Assembly (NCBI GenBank): GCA_947172415.1 | Contig: OX359193.1 | Span: 2,226,501-2,290,500, forward strand | Reading direction: 5' to 3' | DNA from: Chondrosia reniformis | Taxonomy: Eukaryota; Porifera; Demospongiae; Chondrillida; Chondrillidae | Length of the DNA stretch: 64,000 bases | Shown: piece after piece, positions 17,931 through 47,470 of the stretch | Layout: every line of letters starts with the position of its first letter | Position numbering within the stretch: position 1 is the first letter of the stretch | Program-made: the position numbers and the translations under genes | Notes under the pieces: generated by a model | The model's input: the letters and a program-made list of their open reading frames with translations, nothing else | The model's database searches: none | What the model was told of the DNA's origin: nothing

Positions 17931-18217
17931 TATTTCTTCTTATACTACGGTACAAGTCAGAAAAAAGTTGACGTATTACACCCGTAGATAAACCCGTAAT
18001 AGGATACGCACGGCTGTTTCCATTCCTATTCTGCCTGTCAACTTAGTTTTTCACGTGACTATTACGCAATATTTTTCTCCTTAGAGAAGCGAGAAATACC
18101 CCCTTTTAATATTTGTTATTTTGCCGTTTTTGGAGTATTTTTTTCTTTTATCAGATGGTGAGTATATTTACTACTACTTTTAAAAGAGTTTGGCACCATA
18201 AATTCGTTTCTTGGGAG
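17931..18217. repeat. CCCGTAGATA/GGAAACAGCCGTG repeat block
   Basis: This stretch (about 17960-18060) is a diverged inverted copy of 26690-26830. Shared words include CACGTGA, AACTAAATTGAC/AACTAAGTTGAC, GGAAACAGCCGTG and CCCGTAGATAA. It probably represents a short repetitive element linked to Tc1/mariner copies. Confidence 0.4.
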
Positions 18218-19037
18218 TTAATTCATTATTAAAATGTGAATTTTATCATTATGCTGTTTTCTCCCTTTTATAGGATCTTCCGACTTTTTGGATAACTTCT
18301 GACTGAGCTGAAGTAATCTTCTAAATATTAAAAGTGAGTCTACAATTGCTTGTTTCTGGGCCTCTTCATGTAAGGAAGAAATTCCGAAATTTTCTTTCAT
18401 AATCGGATTGCACCGGATATACGAATATGTGTATGTATATAGCGCTATCATTCAATGAAACTAAAGTAAGTAGTGTATATGCATAGCTTGAGTTAAACAT
18501 TTAGCTGGCCTACTTTTCCAGGTTTGTCTCACTCACTGTGCTGATATCTGACCAAGGGATAATTAAGAGTTAAGTTGTGTTAATACAACTATAGGCATGT
18601 AAATACCTGTTTCTGGAATTACTGCAATGCTGTCATCTAAAGAATCTGTGCACACGCTGTTGTCACTCACTTCAGAGTCTGTTTCAGGCACAAAAATTGA
18701 CTCGGATGTTTCTGCATATACATATAGTGTTACATATATGCTTAAGATTCAGTTTATTAGATAATTACTTACCTTCAAATATCAATGATGATTCATTAGA
18801 TGATGGCCCTGTTAAAAATCATAATCACATCATTCTAAAGATATAACATCACGTGACTTATATAACTTGCCATCAGAAAATAAATCTTGTGATATTTCTG
18901 GATCTATATACACAATACATTTGAATAGATCTATATAAGGTATTTAAAATACATAACTGATGGAATTGTAGAGATACTTGCCCTGGTTCTCCATTTGTTT
19001 GTCTTTGGGTTTAGGTTTAGGGTTTTCTTTTGATGAC
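18218..19037 (-). CDS. hypothetical acidic protein, multi-exon, partial
   Basis: Predicted exons are 19037-18982, 18903-18871, 18808-18773 and 18711-18607, then possibly 18443-18218. Their phases join exactly into one acidic, Ser-rich peptide (SSKENPKPKPKDKQMENQ, then DPEISQDLFSDG, SSNESSLIFEE, ESIFVPETDSEVSDNS). The last exon adds a helical segment (EEAQKQAIVDSLLIFRRLLQ) and a stop. The first two introns begin with GCAAGT, so they would be GC-AG introns. No domain is recognised. A 5' exon must lie upstream; a candidate near 19131-19190 does not fit the phase. The gene lies downstream of the RAG1-like gene on the same strand. Confidence 0.4.
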
Positions 19038-19683
19038 CTAAATAGCCAACAATTACCATATAGCAATTAACTACCTTGTTTAAGCCTTATGGTAAATTCA
19101 TGATCCTTATGGAACTGTATACATAGCTAGCTGCTTACATTCTGGATTAGACACAGCTGACTTCAGATTAGATGAAGCCTTTGAAAGCAACAGCTTATTT
19201 TATACTCTACAACATGGGAAACAGGAAGTAGGCAGTGTGTTAATTTCTAAACAGGACATATTTATCAGGTTTAGGCCTAAAAAAATTTTCTTTTATTTAT
19301 ATTTTTGTTATGCAATAAGTATTTGATGTATTTTATAAACAAGAGCCTATGGATATAGTGTTATCTAGTCTCATGCTCCCCAGAGTCCTCACACATGCAC
19401 TTTTGAGACTAGAAAACTGAGTTCACATGCCATGATCACTTAACTAACCAACTGTGCATGCATAATTTCTGGTGATCTGATAATATATTTAAAATGTTTT
19501 CATGCTGTAATCTCTTTTCTAGCAATATTATTGGACATAGCATAAAGATATTGGTAATGACACATCATGATATCAGAATTTTGGCAATTTTCGGTATATG
19601 CATGGCTGTTAAAACCTTACAGTATATGAGGATACATGCATAATTAAACTACATAATTACTAATTATTTCATTAAGTAATTAT
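19038..19683. other. spacer between acidic gene and RAG1-like gene
   Basis: This region probably holds the 3' UTR of the RAG1-like gene (on the high-coordinate side) and an unresolved 5' exon of the acidic gene. I see no repeat or terminal inverted repeat. Confidence 0.35.
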
Positions 19684-22600
19684 TTAAGTCTTTCGTTGCT
19701 TTATTGTTGGCCTTTCCTTTGTAGCCTGTGGGCAGATTTGTAGGCAATGTTCTCTCAGCATGGCTTTTAACTTTTCCGTAGGCTTCCTTAGGTTAGCATA
19801 AGTTCTTTCTAGCGCATTGAATAAATTGTGAATGGATTCAGCACCTTGTTCGCCATGCAAACCCAGACTGCATTGCCACCTTGTCATCATTGAAACAGCA
19901 TGATCCTCCAGCATATGCATTTTTGGTGTAATAGTTTCATCCGGGAAGGATTGCCTATAGCAACTTAGGAATAGATCCACTTTTGTTCCTGTAGATATAA
20001 ACACATGCATAAATGTTATGATTGGTTGAGGCCTATCACATCCTCAACAATTAACTAGTTAAGTGAACTCTTTTGCAGACCTATTTACCTTCAAAAACTG
20101 ACTTAAAAAGTGGTACAAAATGTCAAATTTTATACTGTGTCTAATATAACTTACTAAACGATTCAATATTGTCATCAGACATTGGAGATGCTGTAGTATA
20201 GATACCATAGCAATCAGAAAATAACAAGAATATTTTTTTGAAGTTTTCGGCTATTTGAAAAGCCTCCTCCCTGATTTCAGGAGAGTTATTTGTTGATACG
20301 GTGGAAAGGCTGCTGCACAGTTTGATGATGTTTTGATGCTATATGTAGGTAACAATAATTATGAGTGAGTCTATCTACAACATAGTTGCTTCATGTACGT
20401 ACGCACCTGACAACATTTGTGGACATGGTTACCCACAAATGTTCCACCAAAATAGGCTTGCCTTTGTACACCAATGGTAGACAGTGTCTGGTCTAAAGCT
20501 TCAATGTAAGGTCCATTGTGCTGTCTTATGTTATTATTTTGCAAGTGTTGTATCTGTTCCTTCTATAATACATGAGAGGATTAAGTTGTCTCATGCATCC
20601 AAGTGCTAAATACTAACCAATCTTTTAGCCTCCTGTCTGAAATCTTCGCATTCTTTTAGTAACATTTCTGCCTGACCACTGGCTTCCTCATCATCATCGA
20701 TTGAAATCCAAAGAGCTATTTCTTCAGCAGTTGTAGCATTATCCTCACATTGAGCTAATTGTTCTTGAAATTGTTGTAATTTTTGTAAGGTTGATACATA
20801 GTTAGTAAATTCAAGGGAGGCATTTTCTGGTATGTTTCCACTTGCAGCTGTCTTAGCATCTAACTTGTAGCAGGCATTTTCCAACATTTTAAATAGCTTA
20901 TTGAATATTCCAAGGCTCACGTGCAGTGCTGGAATAGCTACCTTCAAATGAACAGTTAATCATTGTATTCATTATTAATTAGGCATCATCAGGTGTTTAC
21001 AGAAAATACTGAATGATATGCATGTAACCATTTTGAGACCGTATGTACCTGTAACAAGCCCATAGTGAACCTCCTCATATTCCTACACATATATATTACA
21101 TTCAATTTTTCTATTTGATACCATATACATGCATGCTTAAACGTTCACTGGATATTCTGTTTGTATAGCAGGAATACATAGCATGTAGACTTTAAAATTA
21201 AAGCACGAAACATTTGTGGAGGGCAGAATAGCTGTAGAAGTTTAACATGTACAATAAGAGAGACCTTATTTAGACATTTTATATACTATTAATCTTTACT
21301 TACTTGATCTATTGGAATGTTGAGTATGATGTCATCTATTACGTTATTGTAGTATTTTGCATTCTTTTGTTTGCATCCTGCTGCTATAAATCTTTGAAAA
21401 TCACTTTGTAAAGTTGACAAGGTTCTTGAAGTAGCACAACCTCTCTCTGATCTTGGTTTTTGCATTTCCTTACCATCAATATGACACCATAAGCAACAGT
21501 GTTTACCTTAAAATGTTGATTAGTAAAATACAACACTTTTATTAGATTAACTGCTTGTGTTTCAAAGGCATACATACCATTTGCACCAGATATTCCATAT
21601 ATGCGAGAGAGGTACTCATAGTCTCCAAAGTGAAATACTCGTATTCGTTTACCACTGTGTAGGTAACATCTAATATGAAGCAGTTTTTATCAATTATACT
21701 ATAACTCACTTCCATTGTGTTGACTGAAGACTATCAATGTCTTCTCTGTACTGTAACAAAGCAAGCCTTAAATTTGGGCGGGAGTCATTAGCTCGGAAGA
21801 TACAAAAAACGAATGTGTTTCTTGGTGAATTTGGACTTTTTACATTGACAATCTGTTTAATCAGATGGCACAAATAGGAATATGTCCAGCGCCAAAGAGG
21901 AATGATAGATTAGTGCTCACTTGAAATGAACTTTTGAATGTTCCACCACCTTTGTCTCCACCAATTTTAACCCAGATTTCATCTTCAGGAATGACACTGT
22001 GCCAGCTCAATGCTTTTTCTCTATACATGAGTTAGGTTACAGAGTTTACCATGCATATGTATTAGCTGACCCAATGCCAGATTTGTATACCTGTCCAATT
22101 GATCAAGCTGTGATAAAACTGTTATCTTTAGATCTGCAAAATATGCCATAGGGGCTTGGCATAACTCCATACCACGTGATGGTAATGAACGAGAAAATGG
22201 CATGTTTTCTACCAGAATCTCTTCAGGAAGCCAATTATTGACTGTCGTTTTCATTGCCTTTTCACCAGCCATGTGTACTCCCCATTTGGACAGCCATCTA
22301 AACATAAAAATCACTGAATAGTTGGTAATACGGAACTGTTTTCTGTTAATAATTATTTGTTTAAATAGTGTACGTACCTCCTTATATGTCGCATCTTATG
22401 CCATGGTATGGCTAGATCAGCTTTGAAGGCCACACCTTCTTGAGAACTGATATCTATTGGATCCTGTAGTCCAGCTTGCTTCAATAAAGCTTCTCTCTCT
22501 GTTCGACAACATCTGTTTATCTCTGCTCCCATTTGGAACTGTTGTGAACTTGAACTTTTCCCACTTATTTCTTGTCTGAAACTAGAAAGTAGGATGCTTC

Positions 22601-24239
22601 TTGCCTTAACTGTTGAATGACTTGCTGACTGACTGGAAACACGGGATCTTGTTATCCGCTGGAAACAAAGTGGCTAAAAGGATTAAGATTATTAATTATA
22701 TAATCACAATCCTTTCTGGAATAATATGCCAAATTGAAGTTTATCTTACTTGGCCACCAGTTGGTAATTTTATCATACTTGATGTTGCATAGGCACTGGA
22801 TGATTTAATCATACGCTTAACTAGATGACTAGCTACTCTACGTTCCACTGTGTTTGGTGTCTTGGTTATTGGAACATTTAATACATGGTGTAAGGTGATA
22901 CTTGAAGGTGTTTGGTCACAAGATGGAGTAATTACTGGGGATTGCCTGGGTGTATTTGCTATATCTAATACCGATGTGTCTGGTGGTAATTTATTCTGGA
23001 CTCTATCTGCAGCTGGTGGTGAAGAGGCACATGGTGAGTAGAGAGAATCTGGACAAGGTGTGACAACATTTGATAAACTTTGTATTGGAAAATCAGTAAA
23101 AGGTAGTACTGATTCAGTGGATGTAGGTGGAATTGCTATATTAGGTGTAGTAGACATTGGTATATCAGGAAGCTGCATTATTGAAGAGGATGGAGCCAGT
23201 GGATTGAGTGATGTTGGAGATGAAGGTGTTATTTCTGAAGGCCTTGGAATGTTGTGTCTCTCCAAGTGAGTAATTAGGTTACTGAGATTCATTGCTTCTT
23301 CACATCCAGCTATGGGGCACTGTATTTGTAATTCTTTGAAAACTGAAAGAAAAAATGCTGTTGGCTTGGTAATAGAATATGTACCTTCTATAGTTGTATT
23401 GCAGATAGGGCACCTTGGCTCATTTAGTGAATAGGAGTAGTTAATGGACTTAACTAAACATCCTCCACATGTAACGTGGTTACACTTTAGTTGCACTGGG
23501 GTGATAAGTATTTCCAGGCACACGGCACAAGTAAAATTTGCTGCCATTCCAGTTGATGAAAATTTTGGGGTCACATATTGTACTTGGGGAGGGTTGTATT
23601 TTGGAACAGTTGATGCTACCCTTTCTGTATGTACCAATAATGTCATTCGTGTTCTCAGTTCCATTTCCAAGTATTTACCACTTGATTTTGATGGTCTTCC
23701 ACCTCTCAGTTGAATGTTTACAGATCTAGATTTATGATATAGTTATGCATGATGCAATAGTTGTATATTTATTTAGTGCATGAATATCACATTAGTCACA
23801 GAAAGAATAAGTATTCCATTTTTATTGTTAATAGAGTGGAATTAAACAAATAGACTACATTTTATCAACTCCACCTGCATGTAAGGCAGTCGTTGTCATG
23901 TTTTTCCCACGGATAAACATGCATCTGAACCTTTTGAGTAATATTCCTGTTAGATTTATAAGCTTCTTCATATCTGAAATTTATGAGATTGAATGTAGTC
24001 ATTTTATAGTACACTCTACCTCTATTCTTATATTCTCACTTTGTCATAGCTCTATAACATGTATGACAGAAACCTTTTGGGTGTACATCTTCTCTATCAA
24101 GAAAAACTGCCTGTCTTAATGCCATCTCCAGTCTATTGGCATAATCTGCAACAATATGAAGACGTATTTTCTTGGTCCTACTCAACAAAGTTCCACAAAT
24201 GCGACAGAGTTGTTTTAAATTGTCCATATGAATATCCAT
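19684..24239 (-). CDS. RAG1 N-terminal-like RING / DDE transposase-like protein, 13 exons, 1089 aa
   Basis: Exons: 24239-24040, 23973-23875, 23725-22750, 22673-22378, 22297-22091, 22020-21921, 21852-21710, 21654-21578, 21506-21304, 20941-20618, 20562-20407, 20338-20155, 19988-19684. All introns are GT-AG, all phases agree and the sum is 3270 nt. Seen: a Cys/His motif (LCRICG ... GFCHTCYR, residues 10-65), W-x2-H...C-x2-C, a C3HC4 RING (from Cys166), a C2H2 finger (CPIAGCEE..HLERH), a Ser/Pro linker, then GGDKGGGTFK (Asp615), FGDYEYLS (Asp685), a KHCCLWCH zinc motif, PRSERG, and LGLHGEQGAESIH (Glu1035/1038). Known: this is the arrangement of RAG1's zinc-binding dimerisation region, also found in N-RAG-TP/Chapaev-type transposons. 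Inference: an intact DDE enzyme or a domesticated derivative. Exon 4 has a second in-frame acceptor 15 nt downstream. More 5' exons are possible. Confidence 0.9.
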
Positions 24240-26438
24240 TTTTGTACTTTCCAGGATATACTCTTTATTCTAAAATGAGCTAATTGTGACTATAGTTTTG
24301 GTCTTTTATACCCATGGATCGTGTGACCAGCATACCATGTAGTGACTGTGTTTTATACTTATAACAACACATGATTGTAGTACATTTTTATATTTCATCA
24401 TGGTAATTGTATATTTACCCAAAGATAGGTTTACTACAGTCCTAATTAAAGCATCACAGTTAAGATTATAGATTGTGGAGAGGATGTATTTCAGGATGTA
24501 CTTCCAACTAATGATAACCTAATCAAGTGTGAAGTTAATAACAGTCCACTAATAGCATGTACTGTATATAGATCGGATAGGAACTGTGATAGCACTATAT
24601 ATAAGAGGAAAGATGCATGTAATGAATATATACGTACATGAACCAGTATGTCACCATACCAGATTCCAACCAGTGGTTATGACCACCACCTTTTTACAGT
24701 GTATGGTATACATTACATGGGCTCCAGGATGGTTTGTTAGACTTACCCTACATTCTTGGTAGTACCACCCATTGATATATATTAGATTCTATGCTTAACT
24801 GTATAGATACTTGACACATCTCTAGAGACTTACAAGAATGCCCATACAGTTGATACCAACAAGTCAACCAATAATTGTTAAAGTTCAAGCTATATACATA
24901 CTGCAGCTGCCAATAGGTTTAAGTTTCTACAGCCGTAGCCAAATTACAGAACTATGCATTCAGAATAAATAGAATTGACACCCGTTATGGGTCAGTATAT
25001 AGAAGGCCTACATATAACTTATACTGTATCTCCATCTATATATATTTCATATTTCACATATACCTGCAACATGGATTGTACTCAGTTGCCAATAAAGAAA
25101 ACTTACTGAAATTGTAACCATTGGTGTAAAGAAAAAGCTTAGCAGCAATAACAGCTATCAAATATATACATTATAAATGTCATAAATTAGGTCTTACAAG
25201 TATTAAAATTATTTTTTAGATTCAGAAGATACAGAGAGCGAGAGTAACTTGTTTTACCCCTCCAATCTCTCAGCAACTGAGTATACTGAATATATGAAGT
25301 CCAGGTAAAGGACTGTAGTTGCATGTTTAGAAGGGTGAGTTGAGCCTCTGAACAAAACTGCCTTTTTATGACCTCAGCTACGTGCTTATGCCCATTAACA
25401 TTTGACTTTTATGGCATGTTTCTTCTTATAGTCCTGGATAAAATCATTACTTACTTATGAATTATATATAAATAAGCTAATGTCTATTCCCTGACTGTCT
25501 CCTTGGTGCATGCAACACATGAAATCCAACTTAAGAGACTGTTGTTGTGTGTGCTGGTGAGAAGGTCTGGGCTAGGAACAAACAACAACTCAAGTGTGTT
25601 CTTTGGCACAGCTTCTTAGACACAGTGTCCAAGGTCACCTTCAATTGTGTATGGCTTTTGTTTAGTAATGTCTTACTTTGGGAGATCTAATGGATATTGT
25701 CCATTGTGTGCAACATTATTTTTTGTTTCTATATGCAACTGATATCGTAAATGCATAAAGAAGATTGATTAATAACCTTAAGTCAACTCAATCATTAAAT
25801 CCATATGACCAATCCATCTTAGGATGTCAAGGGTAATATGAAAGTAAAAAAAGAGTTCACAGTGGTCATCTAAGTGGGTGTCAATATGATAATAATTTTA
25901 CCTACCTACCTTTATAGATGCTCTACAAGTTGAAATATGATATATACTTTCTAAAGATGAGACTAATGTTAATAATTACTTTAACTGAACGCTTACAAAC
26001 GAACATGTACTTTATAACTCTTCAGTTTTTTGAAGTTTGTATGTAAATGTACTTTTAATTAATAATTATTTGCTGTAGGAAGTGCATGACACCACTGATT
26101 AACAAACATGCATGGTGATATATTAAATAAGTGCACTTTTTCGGTGACAACGTATATGATGGAATATAAGCCCATCACAACATGCAAAATATAGGTATAA
26201 CTAAATTTACATTATAATTTAGTAATTATAGTATTATATGTAATGTCCATCAATTGCTATATAAACCTGTTTTTTGATCAAAGTACAGTAGTATATGGAT
26301 ATCAAAATTCATAAGAGGACATGCAGTGGCACTGTTGCTTGCCATAGCTTATAATATGCAGGACAGATTTTTTAGAATCCTACAGTTGACAAATATATAT
26401 ACTTGAGTTTGCATGGTAAAATGTGCAACCAGCATTTT
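24240..26438. other. long spacer with two exon-like segments
   Basis: Two open segments bounded by splice-like signals stand out on the plus strand: 24473-24643 (reads IIDCGEDVFQDVLPTNDN..., closed by a stop) and 25218-25303 (reads DSEDTESESNLFYPSNLS, with TTTTAG before and GTAAAG after). They cannot be tied into a gene. The rest shows nothing. Confidence 0.25.
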
Positions 26439-26588
26439 ATGTTTAATCTATTTCTATGCTTATTATTATCTAATATATGCAATAACGGAAATAAACGGAT
26501 ATTTCACGAACAAACTTTGGAAAACAATTTCTCTAATGACTTGATAGGCCCAAGAAACCGGAGTAGTTTTAATGAAAGCGTGAATCGT
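26439..26588 (+). CDS. possible signal-peptide first exon
   Basis: An ATG opens with MFNLFLCLLLSNICNN, a plausible secretory signal, followed by a polar Asn-rich stretch, and reaches a consensus donor (C|GTAAGT at 26589). No continuation is found before the transposon that begins at 26934. It may be the 5' exon of a gene interrupted by the insertion, or a chance frame. Confidence 0.2.
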
Positions 26589-26689
26589 AAGTAATATAAA
26601 TGTTCAAACGGAATAATCCAGAAAACTGGGAGAAAGTGGTTAGACTCTCTATAGGAATTTATACAGTTTCAACTGTTCACGTGACTAAG

Positions 26690-26830
26690 AGGCGGCCATT
26701 GTTATTACGTCAGAGAATGATTGCGCAAAAACTAAATTGACCTAAGGAAACAGCCGTGTACGTAGCAAAAGCGTATACGTTTTTATCTATGCCCGTAGAT
26801 AAGGCGTAGACATAAACGTACGTAATATAA
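26690..26830. repeat. GGAAACAGCCGTG/CCCGTAGATAA repeat block
   Basis: This matches the inverted block at 17960-18060. It immediately precedes the left end of the Kolobok-like element, whose right flank enters a Tc1/mariner remnant. It may therefore be the 5' non-coding part of that mariner copy. Confidence 0.4.
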
Positions 26831-26933
26831 CCGCTTACCGCAGATTAAATAAGCACCTTACGCGAATCCTTTTGAGGTGTCATATTGCGACTACTTTTTG
26901 CGAGCGTTCTTCTTTCGAATCTTCTTTTGTTCA

Positions 26934-27118: not shown

Positions 27119-27263
27119 GGGGAACGGAAGCCGCTATTCGTATAAACCACTTGCATAAATACGTCACAAAACGTCTGAAAAATTGCGTAATACCGGATAT
27201 GTTGGCAAAAGAACTGCAACTGCTATATCCATCGTACGATTTTAACCTATTTTCGAAGCGAAG

Positions 27264-29078
27264 ATGCAGCGCGCACAGTCCATATTAAGTCTAGAAACGT
27301 CGACTACAGAAGATGAGTTGCTGAATGTACTAAGGAAACTCACAGTTGCCAGCCTCAAGACTCTCTGCAAGGAAGCGTTCGTGAAAGTGTCGGGAAACAA
27401 GGCCGAATTAATCGGACGGCTAGTAACTCACTGGGAACGCAAGTGCACTGGCAGTGACAGTTTGGCAAGGCCATGTGGTAGTAGATCTGGCGCTGCTATG
27501 GCTTTGGGTGTTGCTGATTTGCCAGTTCTTGCTGAAATCCGTACGTGGAGCAAGGACCTCTCTTCATTAAAGGACTTCACATTCATGCAGCTATATCACT
27601 ACCTCGTAAACAGCCGAGATAAAACCTTTGACAAGGACAGTCTGAAAGCTTTTAAATCCTTGAAAGCCTACAAATATTTTAGTGATAACCTTGTTCAAAA
27701 TGTATGGCTTAACGAAGTAGAAGGGAAAGATCTGGTAATTGTAAGGGGATATTGCCACTCATCACTCAAGGCCAAGACCACCTACACTGTCTATGTAATT
27801 CTGCAGTCAACTGGGGATATTCTGGGTGCACAGTGTAAGTGTATTGCAGGGAAGGGAGAAGCATGTAGCCATGTAGCTGCTCTGCTGTTTTATATTGAAG
27901 ATATTAAGAGGAGAGAAGGGCCACTTCCTTCAGACAAAACAGTTACTGACCAACTACAGCAATGGCATGTGCCTCCTCAGAGAACAGTAACGCCGCAACC
28001 ATTATCTAAAATGGAATTCCATAAGGCAGCTTATGGGAAGGAATTACACACGGCAAAACATCCGGATACCACACAACTCCCTTTCCATCATGATCAGGCA
28101 TCCCTGACACAGTTTGTCGAGAAAGTGAGTCAGATCTATCCTGAGAGTGGTTTAATGCACTTTTGGACTGGCCCTGAAATGGAAGAAGGGAAGGACAGCA
28201 GCGAAACAACTGGACAATTAGCACCTGAGGTTGATGTTACTGATGGCCTCATGCTCTTGGCAAAGAAACTAGTTGTCAACACATCAGTCCCACAATTAGC
28301 CTATGATTTACAGCTGATTAACACTGATAGTGAATATTTTCGGGAACTTTGCCATTCCTATGTTTGTGAACAGGTGATTGACCAGCAATTGTCTACCTTT
28401 ATTGAGAAAGCAACCATCAAGCAAAGTGATAATGAACTGTGGAAGGAGTTACACATTGGTATAATTACTAGCTCTGTATTTGGTGAGGTATATGGTAGGA
28501 GGGATGAGACCAGTCCTCTATCCATATGCAAGCGTTTGATGGGGTACACTTATGTCAGTGCCAATCTGCCACAGCTGCAGTGGGGTAAGAAGAATGAAGC
28601 CAAGGCAAGAGATGCCTACCTCAGCAAGATGAAGTGCTTGGGTCACAAAGACATTGAATGCCAACCCTGTGGTCTGACATTAATGCCTGCACATTCTTAT
28701 CTTGGAGCATCAGCTGATGGTATCATCAGAAACCATAAGCATCATATTGATGAAGGCCCAGGTGTTCTGGAAATAAAATGCCCATTCTCAATTAACAAAA
28801 CATTGGTCACTGGAAGAAGTCCAATTGATTTGGCCAAAGAGGACAACAACTTTTGCCTAGAGTATACTGAAGAGGGAAAAGTGAGACTAAAGAGGACAAG
28901 CCCATACTACATGCAAGTTCAAGGAGAAATGGCAATCAAAAACTACACCTGGGCACATTTTGTAGTATGGACAGCAGCTGATGTCAACAATTTATACATT
29001 GAAGAGATTTGTTTTGACCAAGACCTATGGGAAAACCGCATGTTGCCAAAGCTTCAATCAGTTTACTCAACATTTTAG
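27264..29078 (+). CDS. SAP-SWIM-YqaJ exonuclease-like protein (604 aa)
   Basis: This is a single intact open frame starting MQRAQSILSLE. An N-terminal SAP-like helix pair (about residues 20-55: ASLKTLCKEAFVKVSGNKAE) should bind DNA. A SWIM zinc motif follows (about 195-212: QCKCIAGKGEACSHVAALLF, pattern C-x-C-xn-C-x-H). The C-terminal half is a YqaJ/PD-(D/E)XK nuclease: HIGIITSSVFGEVYGRR, LQWGKKNEAKARDAYL, LGASADGII (catalytic Asp), VLEIKCPFS (Glu-x-Lys) and YYMQVQGEMAI (Gln motif). The catalytic residues appear present. Known: YqaJ proteins accompany ISL2EU transposases. Inference: processing of transposon DNA ends or repair. It converges on the transposase gene with a spacer of about 200 bp. 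Confidence 0.9.
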   Translation: MQRAQSILSLETSTTEDELLNVLRKLTVASLKTLCKEAFVKVSGNKAELIGRLVTHWERKCTGSDSLARPCGSRSGAAMALGVADLPVLAEIRTWSKDLSSLKDFTFMQLYHYLVNSRDKTFDKDSLKAFKSLKAYKYFSDNLVQNVWLNEVEGKDLVIVRGYCHSSLKAKTTYTVYVILQSTGDILGAQCKCIAGKGEACSHVAALLFYIEDIKRREGPLPSDKTVTDQLQQWHVPPQRTVTPQPLSKMEFHKAAYGKELHTAKHPDTTQLPFHHDQASLTQFVEKVSQIYPESGLMHFWTGPEMEEGKDSSETTGQLAPEVDVTDGLMLLAKKLVVNTSVPQLAYDLQLINTDSEYFRELCHSYVCEQVIDQQLSTFIEKATIKQSDNELWKELHIGIITSSVFGEVYGRRDETSPLSICKRLMGYTYVSANLPQLQWGKKNEAKARDAYLSKMKCLGHKDIECQPCGLTLMPAHSYLGASADGIIRNHKHHIDEGPGVLEIKCPFSINKTLVTGRSPIDLAKEDNNFCLEYTEEGKVRLKRTSPYYMQVQGEMAIKNYTWAHFVVWTAADVNNLYIEEICFDQDLWENRMLPKLQSVYSTF

Positions 29079-29280: not shown

Positions 29281-30732
29281 TCATGGATCATCAGTAGGTA
29301 TAATAGGTTTACAAAAGTTTGTTAAATATGAGCAAACACAGACAATGTCTGATGCTAAATCAGCCAGAGTAAGCGGGAAGGGCAATTGAAGAAGTCGATA
29401 ATTCTTAATTCTGCCAATGGCACGCTCCACATGGATCCTCAGTGATGCAATTCTTCTTGTTGCTTCTACCTCCCAAATCGCTAGCTGATCTCACTGTCCC
29501 AGGAAAGGAGGAATGTTCAGGGTGACACCTCGATGTTGTAGTATATTACCCACATCGAATCCTCGATCAGCCATGACATTGTCTCCAAGTTCCAGTAGGT
29601 CCAACAATCCTGACTTCTCAGTAATAGCTTGGTCAGAAATTCTTCCACCCCAAAGTTCGGACACAAAGGTAATTACACCTCCTGGAGATATGCCAATTAG
29701 AACTTTAAATGTATTGTGGTGTTTATAATGGGAGAAGGTAAGTGCTTGCCCTTGTAGTGATGATGGTCTTTGTATGAAAAATTCACTGCAGTCAATAATT
29801 ATGCGAGTATTAGGGAACGTTTTAAAAGATAATGGTGTTCTGGCCATAATTTGCTGCTTTGATGGCCATGGGAAAATTCTTTTTAATTCCACAGCTAAAA
29901 TCTTTATCCATGTTTTGAAGATCCTCGAAATTGTGCTAGGGTGCACTTCAAATCTATTTGCAAGGTCTTCCAACAGTAAACCTAGCCGAAGCCTCAGTAA
30001 AATAGCAAGAAACTCTTCTTCATAGGTTAAACTCCTTTTTCGACCCTGATTAGTGTCACTTGAAGTTTGATGTGACATCTCAACAAGTGGTTGAATATAT
30101 TCTAACAAGGCTGTAAATACAGCATAAGTTGGAAGGCCAGTGTAAAACTTAGTACTGTCATCATTCCCCTTAATAACACTGACCATTTGCCTCTTCAAGT
30201 TCGTCTTCACAGTAAATAGATCCTGCTCCAATGTCTCCACCTGAAGCTGTAGTACCTGATTATCTACCTTTAAACTAGCTTCATTTGACTGCAGTGTAGG
30301 AAAAGAACTTAATTCAGTCTGAACTGCACTATCCTTGTGTGTTGTTCTAGATACAATTACACTTGGAGTCGATGACAGAGCAACTAGTACATCAGCGGCC
30401 TCTTCTACTTGATTTCGTTCGTCCCTTAGCCGCGCTCGTTTAGCTATCCTCTCTAGTCGATTATAGTCGACGGTCGGCGTGTTAATTCTTCTTTTCCCGT
30501 CATCAAAAAGGGTAGGAACGTAGTTCACATCCTTGGGGTTCGTTGACGATTTGCCACCAACAAAGTGCCTGCTGCAAATACGGTCAGATGCCTTGGGTTC
30601 CCACTTGTCCCGTGAAACTGCTTGCACCCAAAGCCGTCTCCTTTCCTTGTCTGCGGGAAACACGTAGAATGCTACGCCTGAGCCCTTCTTGAATCTGTTT
30701 GTACACCCTACGGCGCAACAACTGACTGACAT
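29281..30732 (-). pseudogene. THAP / DDE_Tnp_4 transposase with one in-frame TGA
   Basis: The frame starts MSVSCCAVGCTNRFKKGSG, a THAP zinc finger (Cys5, Cys10, then CSRHF and the VPTLF box). A coiled region around residues 145-170 and a helix-turn-helix (FEVHPSTISRIFKTW) follow. The DDE_Tnp_4 core shows IIDCSEF (Asp1) and MADRGFD (Asp2). A single TGA at about 29491-29493 interrupts the frame. The same frame then continues with RIHVERAIGRIKNYRLL, which should hold the catalytic Glu, and stops at 29281. Without readthrough the product lacks that Glu. An upstream in-frame Met (30777) exists, but the start at 30732 places the THAP cysteines at the usual position. It is the transposase of the nested ISL2EU-like element. 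Confidence 0.85.
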
Positions 30733-30948
30733 TCTCAAAAAATGCTTCCGCCTAACCAGAAATACGTAGCGAGACACTTAAAACCGTTGTGGTCGTTCAT
30801 CCAAGGCACGCAAAACGATGTGAAATAGTTTATTTACTATTCTTCATATACGCGTAATGGTCTTTTTGCCAACAGATGAAAACGCGGGAATAACGCGCGC
30901 AGTTGTAACGTATTTATGCAAGTGGTCTATACGACAAACGGGCCCAAA

Positions 30949-36580: not shown

Positions 36581-37002
36581 AACTAATTTTCCACACGTAC
36601 CATATATAGATATATAGTATATTGTAACTTTTAGTGTATATATATTTCCGTAACATGAAGCCCTACAACGTAGCCGGCTAATGAAAAGAATATTAGGGGC
36701 TGCTTGAGACGGGTATACACACGTCTGTACCCTGATCTGTTTTACGTCCGTATGTTTCTCCCTGTACACCCGTATATTGCTACGTGAGAGACCCGTACGT
36801 AACCGTCCTATGGCCGTATCCAAAGTATGTTAATGCCAAACACTAATGGTGTAAATCGTAAGGAATGTCAAGCCCCTCATCATCATATCTATACGTCGTT
36901 GGCTGTGCCGAGGTGTTGCCCAGTCTAGTTCTCCCGAATATTTTTGCCTTCTGTACGTCGTTCTCCAGTGTATCCGTGTCTCTCAACTACAAAGCGTAAT
37001 TA

Positions 37003-43421: not shown

Positions 43422-44668
43422 TTACATAAGAGATGGATCATAACGAACAACCAGTTTACGGTTTCTCTTAGGATAAGCGTGAACTTCAGTTGTGGGAGCA
43501 TCGACAACCGTAGGTTCAGGAGCTTGAACGTTTGCAGGTGACACAACAACCGTCTCAGGCGTGTGTGTCCCAGTCTGAGGCATACTCTCAATTTGTGACA
43601 AGGTAGGCTCTGGAAGTTGAGGTAGAACTTCCATTGGACCGTGGATCGCAGTTTCTTCAGGGTGCACTAGGGGTGCATCTACTGTCCTGGTTCGAACTTG
43701 GTCCAGGTGGCATCTAAGTAACTGACCATTATTCATCCTCACTCTAAATGAAACTGGTCCCGCTTGGTCCTGCACAACACCAGGTAACCATAGTTCACCC
43801 TGATGATAGTTTTGAACAAATACTTTATCTCCAGCCTTAATTGTCCTTCCTCGAGCTTGCTCATCATGTCTTTGAACTTGTTTAGCTTGTTGACATTCCA
43901 CCCGTTTTTCGGTGTTTGGTCTCAACAGATCGAGCCTTGTTCTGGGACAGCGCCCCAACAACAGTTCATTTGGCAAAATTCCAGTAGTTGACTGAGCTGT
44001 AAGCCGGTAAGTAAACAAAATAATAGCAATCCGACTACGCAAGGAGCCATCTATGACTTTACGAAGTCCACTCTTAGCAACCTGAACCGCACGTTCAGCA
44101 AGTCCATTTGTAGATGGATGATATGGAGCTGACAAGATCTGAACAATCCCGTTCTTTTTCAAGAACTGCTTAAACTCAACACTTGTAAAACAGGTACCAT
44201 TGTCAGAGACAATCGTTTCAGGTATCCCAAACTGCGAGAATAAAACTCTTAGTTCCTCAATGACAGCACGGGAGGTTGCACTGGATGTGGGAATAGCCTC
44301 TATCCATTTTGAATGGGCGTCTATAACAATCAGAACCATCTGACCCTTGATAGGTCCTGCAAAATCTATATGCAGACGAGTCCAAGGACGTGTTGGCCAT
44401 GACCATGGATGTAGAGGTGCAACAGGGGGCTTAGATTGATGCTGTTGACACACTTGGCAACCTTTGACAGCCACCTCAACATCTATGGTAATGCCCGGCC
44501 ACCGACATACATCCTTGAAAAGCTTTTCATCTTAGTTGTTCCTGGATGTCCTTCATGAAGTTGGGCAAGCACTGCTCGCTGAAATGGTTGTGGCACAAAA
44601 ACTCGATTACCCCATAAGATGCAACCATCATGTAGCGACAACTCTTTTCGTCTCTCAAAATAGGGCAA
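43422..44668 (-). pseudogene. gypsy integrase
   Basis: The zinc-binding N-terminal part (LHEGHPGTTKMK ... VKGCQVCQQHQ) is split by a frame break near 44490. The catalytic core is open: HIDFAGPIKGQMVLIVIDAH (first Asp), ETIVSDNGTCFTS (second Asp) and HPSTNGLAERAVQ (Glu). A C-terminal chromo/SH3-like stretch (AGDKVFVQNY...GELWLPGVV) and a Pro-rich tail follow. The DDE triad is present. Confidence 0.9.
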
Positions 44669-44704
44669 GAGAGCATCTCCAACCGCATCCTTATGAGGCC
44701 ATCC

Positions 44705-45930
44705 TCACTGGATGTACTCCATTACTACAGCCAATTTAGGGTCTCGCCTAGTAGCTTCCTTGATCTGTCTCGATGTAACAAGTGATGAGTCTAGATGGTC
44801 AAGCAACAACACCAGTTCAGGTGGAGTAACTGGATCAGCAACCGTGTCCGTTAGCGGGAAGCGACTCAATGCATCAGCATTTGAATGAGCTTTGGTGTTC
44901 CGGAACTGAAGGTCATACTCAAACATGGATAGCTGCAAGGACCCAGGATGAATCCTAGCTGAGGCTTGGGCAGATGTTGGTTTCTGTCAGCGATCGTAGC
45001 CAGGGCTTGTGATCCGTAATGATGGTGAACTTCCGGCCAAACAGATAGGGGTAGAATTTCTTTACACCAAAAACACACGACAAGCCCTCCTTTTCAAGTT
45101 GGGAATAGTTTTTTTTCCACCGGGTTTAGTGTCCTGGACGCATAGGCCACAGGCTGTTCTGTCCCATCAGGCATCTTATGAGCTAGGACCACACCAATGC
45201 CATAGGCAGACGCGTCACATGCCAGCACAATTGGCAATTGGGGGTTGTAAAGAGTTATTAGCTTTGCTGACATCAACATTCCTTTGGACTGTTGGAAGGC
45301 CTTTTCTTGATCCAAGGACCACTGCCATACCACATCACTGTTCAGTAGCTTATACAGTGGTGCCAGGTGATTTGATAAATTTTGCAAAACCTTAGCATAA
45401 TAGGAAATCAACCCAAGGTAAGATTTGAGTTCAGTGGTGTTAGTTGGTGGAGGTGCATCACATATGGCACGAACCTTCTCTGGTAGTGGACTAATGCACT
45501 TGGCATTGACAAGGTGTCCCAGAAATTCAACTGTGGAGGCCATAAACTTACACTTGTTTTTCTTTGCTCGAAGTCCTGCTTCTGAAAGCCGTTGCAGCAC
45601 TGCCTCAAGAGATCTGAGCTGGGCATCTTTGGTAGGACTAGAGATTAGAATATCATCCAAATAGACTACAACTCCAGGTATGTCTCGTAGTAGGTCCTCC
45701 ATAACCCTCTGGAAATTACCAGGGGCTAATGATACACCAAAGGGGAGTCTAGTATAGCGAAACAATCCCCTATGAGTGTTAATCACAAGGTATTTCTGGG
45801 AGGTACCGTCCAGCTTCAGTTGTTGGTATGCTTGACTAAGGTCTAGTTTAGAAAACACCTTTCCCTCAGCCAAGGAGGCTAACAAATCTTTTACTTTCGG
45901 CAGGGGTCATCTATTGAGTTTAGACACAGG
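44705..45930 (-). pseudogene. gypsy reverse transcriptase and RNase H
   Basis: Reverse transcriptase motifs are FSKLDLSQAYQQLKLD (first Asp), LPFGVSLAPGNFQRVME, VVYLDDILI (YLDD box) and FLGHLVNAKCISPLPEKV. RNase H begins at LACDASAYGIGVVL. After a frame break near 45080 it continues with LSMFEYDLQFRNTKAHSNAD. Upstream linker sequence (to about 46110) has further breaks. The catalytic residues of the reverse transcriptase look intact but the polyprotein is not continuous. Confidence 0.9.
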
Positions 45931-46116
45931 ATTCACATTTGTATGGAAATCCCCACATATCCTTACGCTCTTCTGGTCACTTTTCAAGACTGCCACAATT
46001 GGAGCTGCCCAGTCTGAATAGTCCACTGTTTCCAGCTTACCTTCTTCAACCAGCCTGTCCAGTTCAGAGCTAACTGCCTCTCGCATGGCATAAGGAAGGG
46101 GCCTTGCCTTGTTGAA

Positions 46117-46510
46117 TCAGGGTGTTGCATCAGGATGGACCACCAGCGAAACTTCAGGTCCCTTGAAAGTCCCCAGCCCCTTTTGAAATACATCAGGGTA
46201 CCTTCTCAGAACATCTTGCAGCCCTGTACTTTGAGTGTAATGAATGTTAGACCAATTAAGTTTAATTGCCCTCAGCCAGTTCCTATCAAATAGAATAGGG
46301 CCACCTCCCTTAACAACAACAAGTGGCAAGGTCACCTTTTGGCTTTCATACTCAACTGTACCTAGCACTATCAGAGGTTCCTTTGAGTAGGTCTGTCACT
46401 GAATATCTAAGGTGCTAAGTCTCCTATCACCCCACAATTGTCTGTATTGGGTTTCTGAAATCAGAGACACAGAGGCACCCGTATCTAATTCCATGGCAAC
46501 ACTAATACCA
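46117..46510 (-). pseudogene. gypsy aspartic protease region
   Basis: MELDTGASVSLIS (Asp-Thr-Gly active site) continues directly from gag. An in-frame TGA lies at about 46397. LGTVEYESQKVTLPLVVVKG and ILFDRNWL follow. The second strand motif is typical of retropepsins. The stop would prevent a full Pol product. Confidence 0.85.
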
Positions 46511-47470
46511 TCAATTCTCACCAGAACCTTGATTGGAGGTTGATACACTGTTCACTTCACCCATTTCTTCCACCAGCCAGAGATTGGCCTCCTCTTCTGA
46601 GTCTGACTCTTGTGACTCTTGAATCTGGCTTACTCCAATCTTGTCATGGTGCTTCCTTGGCTTGGCACTCAGCTGGAACTCCCTGGGATTAGTACAACCA
46701 CCTGCTGAGTGACAGACCTTCTGCAGGTGTCCCACACATCGACAACTTCGACAAACATAGTCCTTATATGGAGAATCGGTGCCACTGTGACCTGTTTTGC
46801 CACATCTATGACACTGTCCCTCTGATGGCTTACTTGCTGTCTTCTTGACAACATTGACTCCCTCCTTGTCTTTGAGAGTCTCTCCAGCACTCATTTCACA
46901 GAGGTTCTTCTCTGCAGTCTCTGCACCTTTTGCTATCCGAATAGTGGAAGCCAAAGTCAGATCGTGCTCTGCCAGTAATTTCTTCTGGGTGTGAGGGTCC
47001 TTTATACCCCAAACCAGTCTATCCCTGAGCATCTTGTCTAGGGAAGCTCCGAAATTAAAAAATTCAGCAAGCTTGCGCAATTCCGCAATATAGTCAGGGA
47101 CTGACTCGCCTTCTTTTCGGCTTCGCGAGTTAAACCTGAAGCATTGCATGACCTCAGTGGATTTCGGACTGTAGTGCTCTGTTAACACTTCCACCAGCTG
47201 GCCGTAGGTCTTGGCGGTCGGCTATTCAGGCACGATCAGACTTCGAAGTAAATTGTAGGCGCTTCGCCCCACTACCGTCAGGAAAGTTGCTCTTCTTTTC
47301 ACAGCATTATCCTCTCCTGTTATATCGTTTGCAACAAAGAACTGTTCCAATCTCTCCACGTACTGCGGCCATTCTTCTGCAACTGAGTCGAAAGGTTCGA
47401 TATGGCCTAGTAATCCTGTAGCCATCAATCTGAGTTCTTGATCCTCGACCCCGTCGCCAGTATATGTCAT
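46511..47470 (-). pseudogene. gypsy gag (one premature stop)
   Basis: The frame opens at MTYTGDGVEDQEL at the LTR edge and contains capsid-like EEWPQYVERLEQFF and SVPDYIAELRKLAEFFNFG. It ends with two zinc knuckles (CHRCGKTGHSG and CRSCRCVGHLQKVC). A TAG at about 47222 splits the frame after LIVPE. Gag would form the particle and bind RNA. Confidence 0.9.

Follow-up and report, generated by a model that had tools for sequence, protein, structure and literature searches.

According to passages of a 2021 paper (PMC8355894), some Transib transposons are the only known case of 12/23 asymmetry apart from V(D)J recombination, and RAG-like transposons do not conform to it. Sections of a 2022 paper (PMC9435367) report asymmetric ends for every Transib of subgroup I, and a 4/13 spacing for AanRAGL. 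As for Chapaev transposons, extracts of PMC3985635 identify DUF1280 as their transposase family, grouped with RAG1, and parts of a 2015 paper (PMC4411706) describe Chapaev elements that carry a Chapa domain, two subgroups of them together with a RING, and argue for a common ancestor with RAG1. An excerpt of PMC12730594 defines the CMCT clade by its DDE core and its C2C and H(3-4)H motifs, and gives its termini as CA..TG. Here, we compare these systems with an element in a 64,000-nt stretch of DNA from the sponge Chondrosia reniformis (assembly GCA_947172415.1, contig OX359193.1, positions 2,226,501 to 2,290,500 of the forward strand), the whole of which is referred to as the window. Positions 18009-26758 very probably hold a young, structurally complete cut-and-paste Chapaev transposon copy with a RAG1-like transposase. 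The new part is the 12/23-type shape of the ends; a zinc region joined to a Chapaev core is an already known class. The element and its insertion site comprise the following features.

18009..26758, minus strand: the whole Chapaev-type transposon, 8,750 bp
18009..18051, plus strand: 23-type end, 3' of the gene, CACGGCTG, 23-nt spacer, AACTTAGTTTTT (pattern scan)
26727..26758, minus strand: 12-type end, 5' of the gene, CACGGCTG, 12-nt spacer, AATTTAGTTTTT
18005..18008, no strand: target-site duplication TACG, left copy
26759..26762, no strand: target-site duplication TACG, right copy
17946..18008, no strand: left part of the repeat hit by the insertion (joined-flank matches)
26763..26857, no strand: right part of this repeat, to the limit of the query (joined-flank matches)

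The element ends were recognised by eye and then confirmed by two sister copies, L007, which matches window 18009-26768 at 98.3% identity, and L011, which matches in two pieces at 95%; they are not among the longest 25 of 67 inverted-repeat pairs over 16.5-29 kb. The edges are sharp in both comparisons and carry inverted CACGGCTG blocks, with one letter altered at one L007 end. Duplications of 4 bp flank all three copies, TACG at the window copy and AAGT and GGGG at the L007 and L011 copies. Joined around one TACG, the window flanks have 34 matches in the genome, two of which are the flanks themselves; 18 matches span the query from position 8-13 to 167-170 of 170 at 84-96% identity, and the empty repeat copies that were read (6/6) carry a single TACG and no element. 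An earlier note on this DNA had left the choice between a recently active element with many introns and a domesticated gene to a search for inverted ends and multiple copies, among other checks. The ends at 18.0 and 26.76 kb, the duplication and the sister copies favour the transposon. The stretches that it had proposed to search, 18-20 and 24-25 kb, take in the left end and miss the right one, and the 12/23 spacing had escaped it. In the mechanism that we envisage, the transposase would cut at the CAC of CACGGCTG and insert with a 4-bp stagger.

Relatives of the transposase gene lie at 15 places in the 117-Mb genome (66 matches, grouped by us). Family A consists of the window copy, L007, L011 and two incomplete copies, family B of three copies that are 98.9-99.1% alike, family C of three places, two of them with both ends, and family D of two places; there are also two remnants. 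When A and C are compared as DNA, the matches extend over the coding exons, in two cases across short introns, and also include stretches near the ends. The left end of family D, the right end of the C6 copy in family C, and the ends of locus F were not found. Eight copies with both ends (three of A, three of B, two of C) provide 16 ends for comparison, and their target-site duplications measure 4 bp in six cases and 5 bp in one (B1), with no exact duplication at B3. Target-site duplications of 4 bp are a hallmark of Chapaev.

The outer block CACGGCTG is exact at 14 of the 16 ends, and the inner block AACTTAG at 13. The spacer between them on the 3' side of the gene is 23 nt in families A and C and 22 nt in B, and on the 5' side it is 12 nt in all three; two 5' ends at a family D locus have a spacer of 11. 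Measured from the element end, the inner block begins at 31 bp (A, C) or 30 bp (B) on one side and at 20 bp (19 in D) on the other, as compared with 30 and 19 bp (heptamer plus spacer) for the second block of vertebrate recombination signal sequences (RSSs). A genome-wide pattern scan in which 31 spacer lengths were allowed gave 16 matches, and a second one yielded 18 with 16 spacer lengths allowed and one base left free. All matches of both scans have a spacing of 11, 12, 22 or 23, none being intermediate, and the reversed end pattern had no match genome-wide. The 5' end of the window copy is absent from both exact-scan lists because its inner block, AATTTAGTTTTT, is one letter off AACTTAG (AATTTAG). 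A search for Chapaev-type ends in genome contigs other than those of animals had a single match, of 51 nt in the record of a sponge symbiont, and a search in viral contigs had none.

Judged from this anatomy, we assign a probability of roughly 0.45 to a mechanism in which the transposase brings together a 23-type and a 12-type end, and in which the inner AACTTAG block serves as a second binding site, set closer to one of the ends by one turn of the helix in the manner of the 12/23 rule. A serious competitor, to which we would still give somewhat less than an even chance, is that the equal block spacings are due to shared descent and have no function in pairing, the difference of ~11 bp being a frozen indel. 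Families A, B, C and D form one lineage, and the spacers of A share 13 of 23 letters on the 3' side and 3 of 12 on the 5' side with those of C, and 6 of 11 on the 5' side with those of D, so that the equal lengths are not independent. End asymmetries of other sizes are also known in RAG-like elements, 4/13 as mentioned above and 27/31 in ProtoRAG. Descent alone fits less well with the comparison of A and B, where the spacers are nearly unrelated (2 of 12 letters alike, and 7 or 10 of 22 depending on the edge used) and yet equal in length within 1 nt, length being kept better than sequence, and with the lack of intermediate spacings among the exact pattern matches. In addition to the common descent of the families, several observations weigh against our reading of the element and its ends. 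A spacing of 25 occurs in one decayed copy whose outer block is altered, the duplications at B1 and B3 depart from 4 bp, AACTTAG is unlike the A-rich RSS nonamer, and the ends are visible in one genome only; furthermore, the helical region that precedes the core of the transposase has no significant match, by profile or by fold, to the nonamer-binding domain of RAG1.

Two further sites carry end-like sequences. Family D locus L035 holds a pair of 12-type ends with a spacer of 11, ~1.55 kb apart and in the same orientation (G000:C13:4186656 and C13:4188211); nested copies, truncated copies or a duplicated end are possible explanations. A 23-type end at G000:C13:2088421 (L043:122), counted in the 16 and 18 scan matches and not among the eight complete copies, has no transposase match within the adjoining 9.9 kb, and possibly belongs to a non-autonomous or unrelated element.

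The layout of the predicted transposase resembles that of RAG1, with a zinc region, a RING, a C2H2 finger, a linker, a helical region in the position of the nonamer-binding domain, and an RNase H-like DDE core. The N-terminal zinc motifs are C12/C15, H53/C58/C61 and C96/C99, the C3HC4 RING occupies residues 166-208 (C166 C169 C181 H183 C186 C189 C205 C208) and the C2H2 finger residues 236-257 (C236 C241 H253 H257). In the core, the residues D610, D680, C699/C702, H1008/H1013 and E1034 fall in columns that are conserved in relatives, and the C2C and H4H zinc motifs between the second Asp and the Glu are those of the CMCT clade. Pfam assigns RAG1_imp_bd (E 2.7e-11), RING (E 5.1e-6) and, above its curated cut-off, DUF1280 (PF06918, E 5.7e-14) to the window protein; in a set of 40 relatives, DUF1280 is found in 39 and RAG1_imp_bd in 13. 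A protein search gave 46 relatives at E 0.001 or better, 25-42% identical, with Ephydatia, Sycon, Hydra, echinoderms and amphioxus among the named sources. The top PDB match by sequence is RAG1 (E 2.6e-8, over residues 36-245 of a first, 1070-aa model of the protein), and a profile built from the 40 relatives matches RAG1 101-416 with E 6.5e-28. These matches, motifs and core residues bear out the RAG1-like zinc region and Chapaev-type DDE core that had been proposed from the letters, and the family membership is Chapaev. As for the proposal that the gene bears on the origin of the RAG1 zinc region, that argument was made in print for Chapaev in 2015, in a part of PMC4411706 whose description of elements with Chapa and RING makes the combination of RAG1 zinc region and DDE core a known class.

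Hardly any weight can be given to an assignment of the element to Transib/RAG1L, that is, to RAG proper. The fold predicted for a relative appears closest to RAG1 and HzTransib, and the 12/23-type ends, the CAC termini and the RAG1-like zinc region would also suit such an element. The near-universal presence of DUF1280 argues against it, as does the Pfam RAG1 core family (PF12940), which is not among the families listed to E 1 for the window protein or to E 0.01 for the 40 relatives. The duplications are mostly 4 bp, and 5 bp at only one of the eight complete copies, while those of HzTransib, ProtoRAG and AanRAGL are 5 bp; Transib, moreover, is without the RAG1 N-terminal region. Comparison with the other families showed no RAG2-like frame in the element; a genome-wide search for the RAG2 family gave no match, but a control search was likewise without match. 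Downstream of the transposase stop, exon-like open pieces lie on the minus strand at window 18221-19199. They are similar only to family A copies, where they are broken, and searches of copies from families B, C and D gave no counterpart. A second gene is not claimed on these grounds, and the pieces are perhaps the remains of a second coding part.

Compared with the published Chapaev transposons, the element shares the DUF1280 transposase, the Chapa-type zinc domain with RING of two subgroups (PMC4411706, in part) and the CA..TG termini of the CMCT clade (PMC12730594, in part), with mostly 4-bp duplications here. A 12/23-type spacing in Chapaev ends was not reported in the literature searched, the scope of which did not include the original Repbase Reports descriptions. 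With vertebrate RAG1 and its signals, the element has in common the zinc region, the core fold, the CAC start and the two-block ends, whereas the core is 14-15% identical in the structural alignment, the inner block differs from the nonamer, no RAG2 was seen, and the duplications are 4 bp. The N-RAG-TP of Aplysia, compared by description only, is likewise a transposable element with a protein resembling the RAG1 N-terminus. As to the origin of the 12/23 rule, the likeness of these ends to the RAG1 signals could help to explain the source of those signals. With an intact RAG1-like transposase between complete 12/23-type ends, the Chapaev element shows ends of this kind on a branch farther removed, and an apparently single-protein system offers a way to ask whether 12/23 pairing needs RAG2. 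It is conceivable, albeit rather unlikely, that 12/23-type asymmetry and the whole RAG1 layout (zinc region, core and nonamer-binding-like region) go back to an ancestor shared by Chapaev, Transib and RAG; for the zinc region and core, joint ancestry was proposed in 2015. If true, the 12/23 rule of the RSSs would derive from a rule for the pairing of transposon ends that predates the association with RAG2, and the present elements would still follow that rule with a single protein.

The gene runs on the minus strand from an ATG at 24239 to a TAA ending at 19684, as the earlier note had it. Our first model had 14 exons and 1070 aa, with all introns GT-AG, agreeing phases and no stop. A putative 42-nt intron in this model (23384-23343) is more likely coding: the frame is kept across it, a loop in relatives has about the same length, and a family D match runs in one frame throughout. 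Reading these 42 nt as coding gives 13 exons with agreeing phases and no stop, in agreement with the earlier exon count; the single open frame stands too, at 1084 codons plus stop instead of 1089 codons. A 34-nt microexon at 21082-21049 was rejected, since it breaks the frame and relatives are uninterrupted across its place. The predicted 13-exon splicing, supported by comparison, is as follows.

19684..24239, minus strand: transposase gene, 13 exons, 1084 aa
24040..24239, minus strand: exon 1 (zinc region)
23875..23973, minus strand: exon 2 (zinc region)
22750..23725, minus strand: exon 3 (end of zinc region, RING, C2H2, linker; includes the coding 42 nt 23343-23384)
22378..22658, minus strand: exon 4 (helical region before the core)
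22091..22297, minus strand: exon 5
21921..22020, minus strand: exon 6 (first catalytic Asp, D610)
21710..21852, minus strand: exon 7
21578..21654, minus strand: exon 8 (second Asp, D680)
21304..21506, minus strand: exon 9 (C699, C702)
20618..20941, minus strand: exon 10
20407..20562, minus strand: exon 11
20155..20338, minus strand: exon 12
19684..19988, minus strand: exon 13 (H1008, H1013, E1034, stop)

A phase 1 intron that splits a Gly codon before the CLWC motif is found at the same place, with GT..AG, in families B, C and D (8/8 places examined). The donor of this intron, which lies at 21577-21507 in the window, is GT there and in families B, C and D, and TT in both L007 and L011. L007 is nearer to the window copy than to L011 despite the shared TT donor, for which parallel loss or exchange between copies are candidate causes.

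The window copy is the sole intact one among the three full-length family A copies, L007 and L011 being broken, and the earlier note took the intact frame as a sign of selection. Divergence from L007, the nearest copy, is very low, however, with 0.4% difference in exons and 0.84% outside them (14/3243 and 45/5353 substitutions, respectively, p 0.03). On the window branch the exons changed less than the rest (6/3243 versus 23/5353, p 0.08), but the exon count on the L007 branch is similar (8 versus 21, p 0.34), and since the contrast between exons and the rest is weak, it makes no case for host use. With so little divergence, and only the six exonic substitutions on the window branch, the intact frame needs no host selection; youth alone predicts it. 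Neither are the introns a mark of domestication, because the one compared is common to the other families. Considering also the several copies, the intact ends and exact duplication, and the simple insertion seen from the empty repeat copies, it is very improbable that the host has adopted this transposon-derived copy and now keeps its frame. Between families, the ratio of nonsynonymous to synonymous differences (pN/pS) is 0.39-0.55, as expected for transposases kept functional during spread.

Elsewhere in the window, positions 36637-36706 match, at 87%, part of the ~400-nt insert that breaks L011, and therefore probably represent a small mobile repeat. An intact 610-aa frame at 27246-29078 on the plus strand has YqaJ, viral alkaline exonuclease and SAP matches and, at E 1e-30 or better, 25 relatives with identities of up to 53%; the three named ones are from bivalves, with no sponge among them. 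On the minus strand, a frame at 29494-30774 with a THAP domain and a DDE_Tnp_4 transposase represents another DNA transposon, and retroelement pieces at 43422-47221 include integrase-like, reverse-transcriptase-like and zinc-knuckle-like frames, as judged by eye. A short-period tandem repeat with several open frames (HTHKWDG-type) occupies positions 263-1342.
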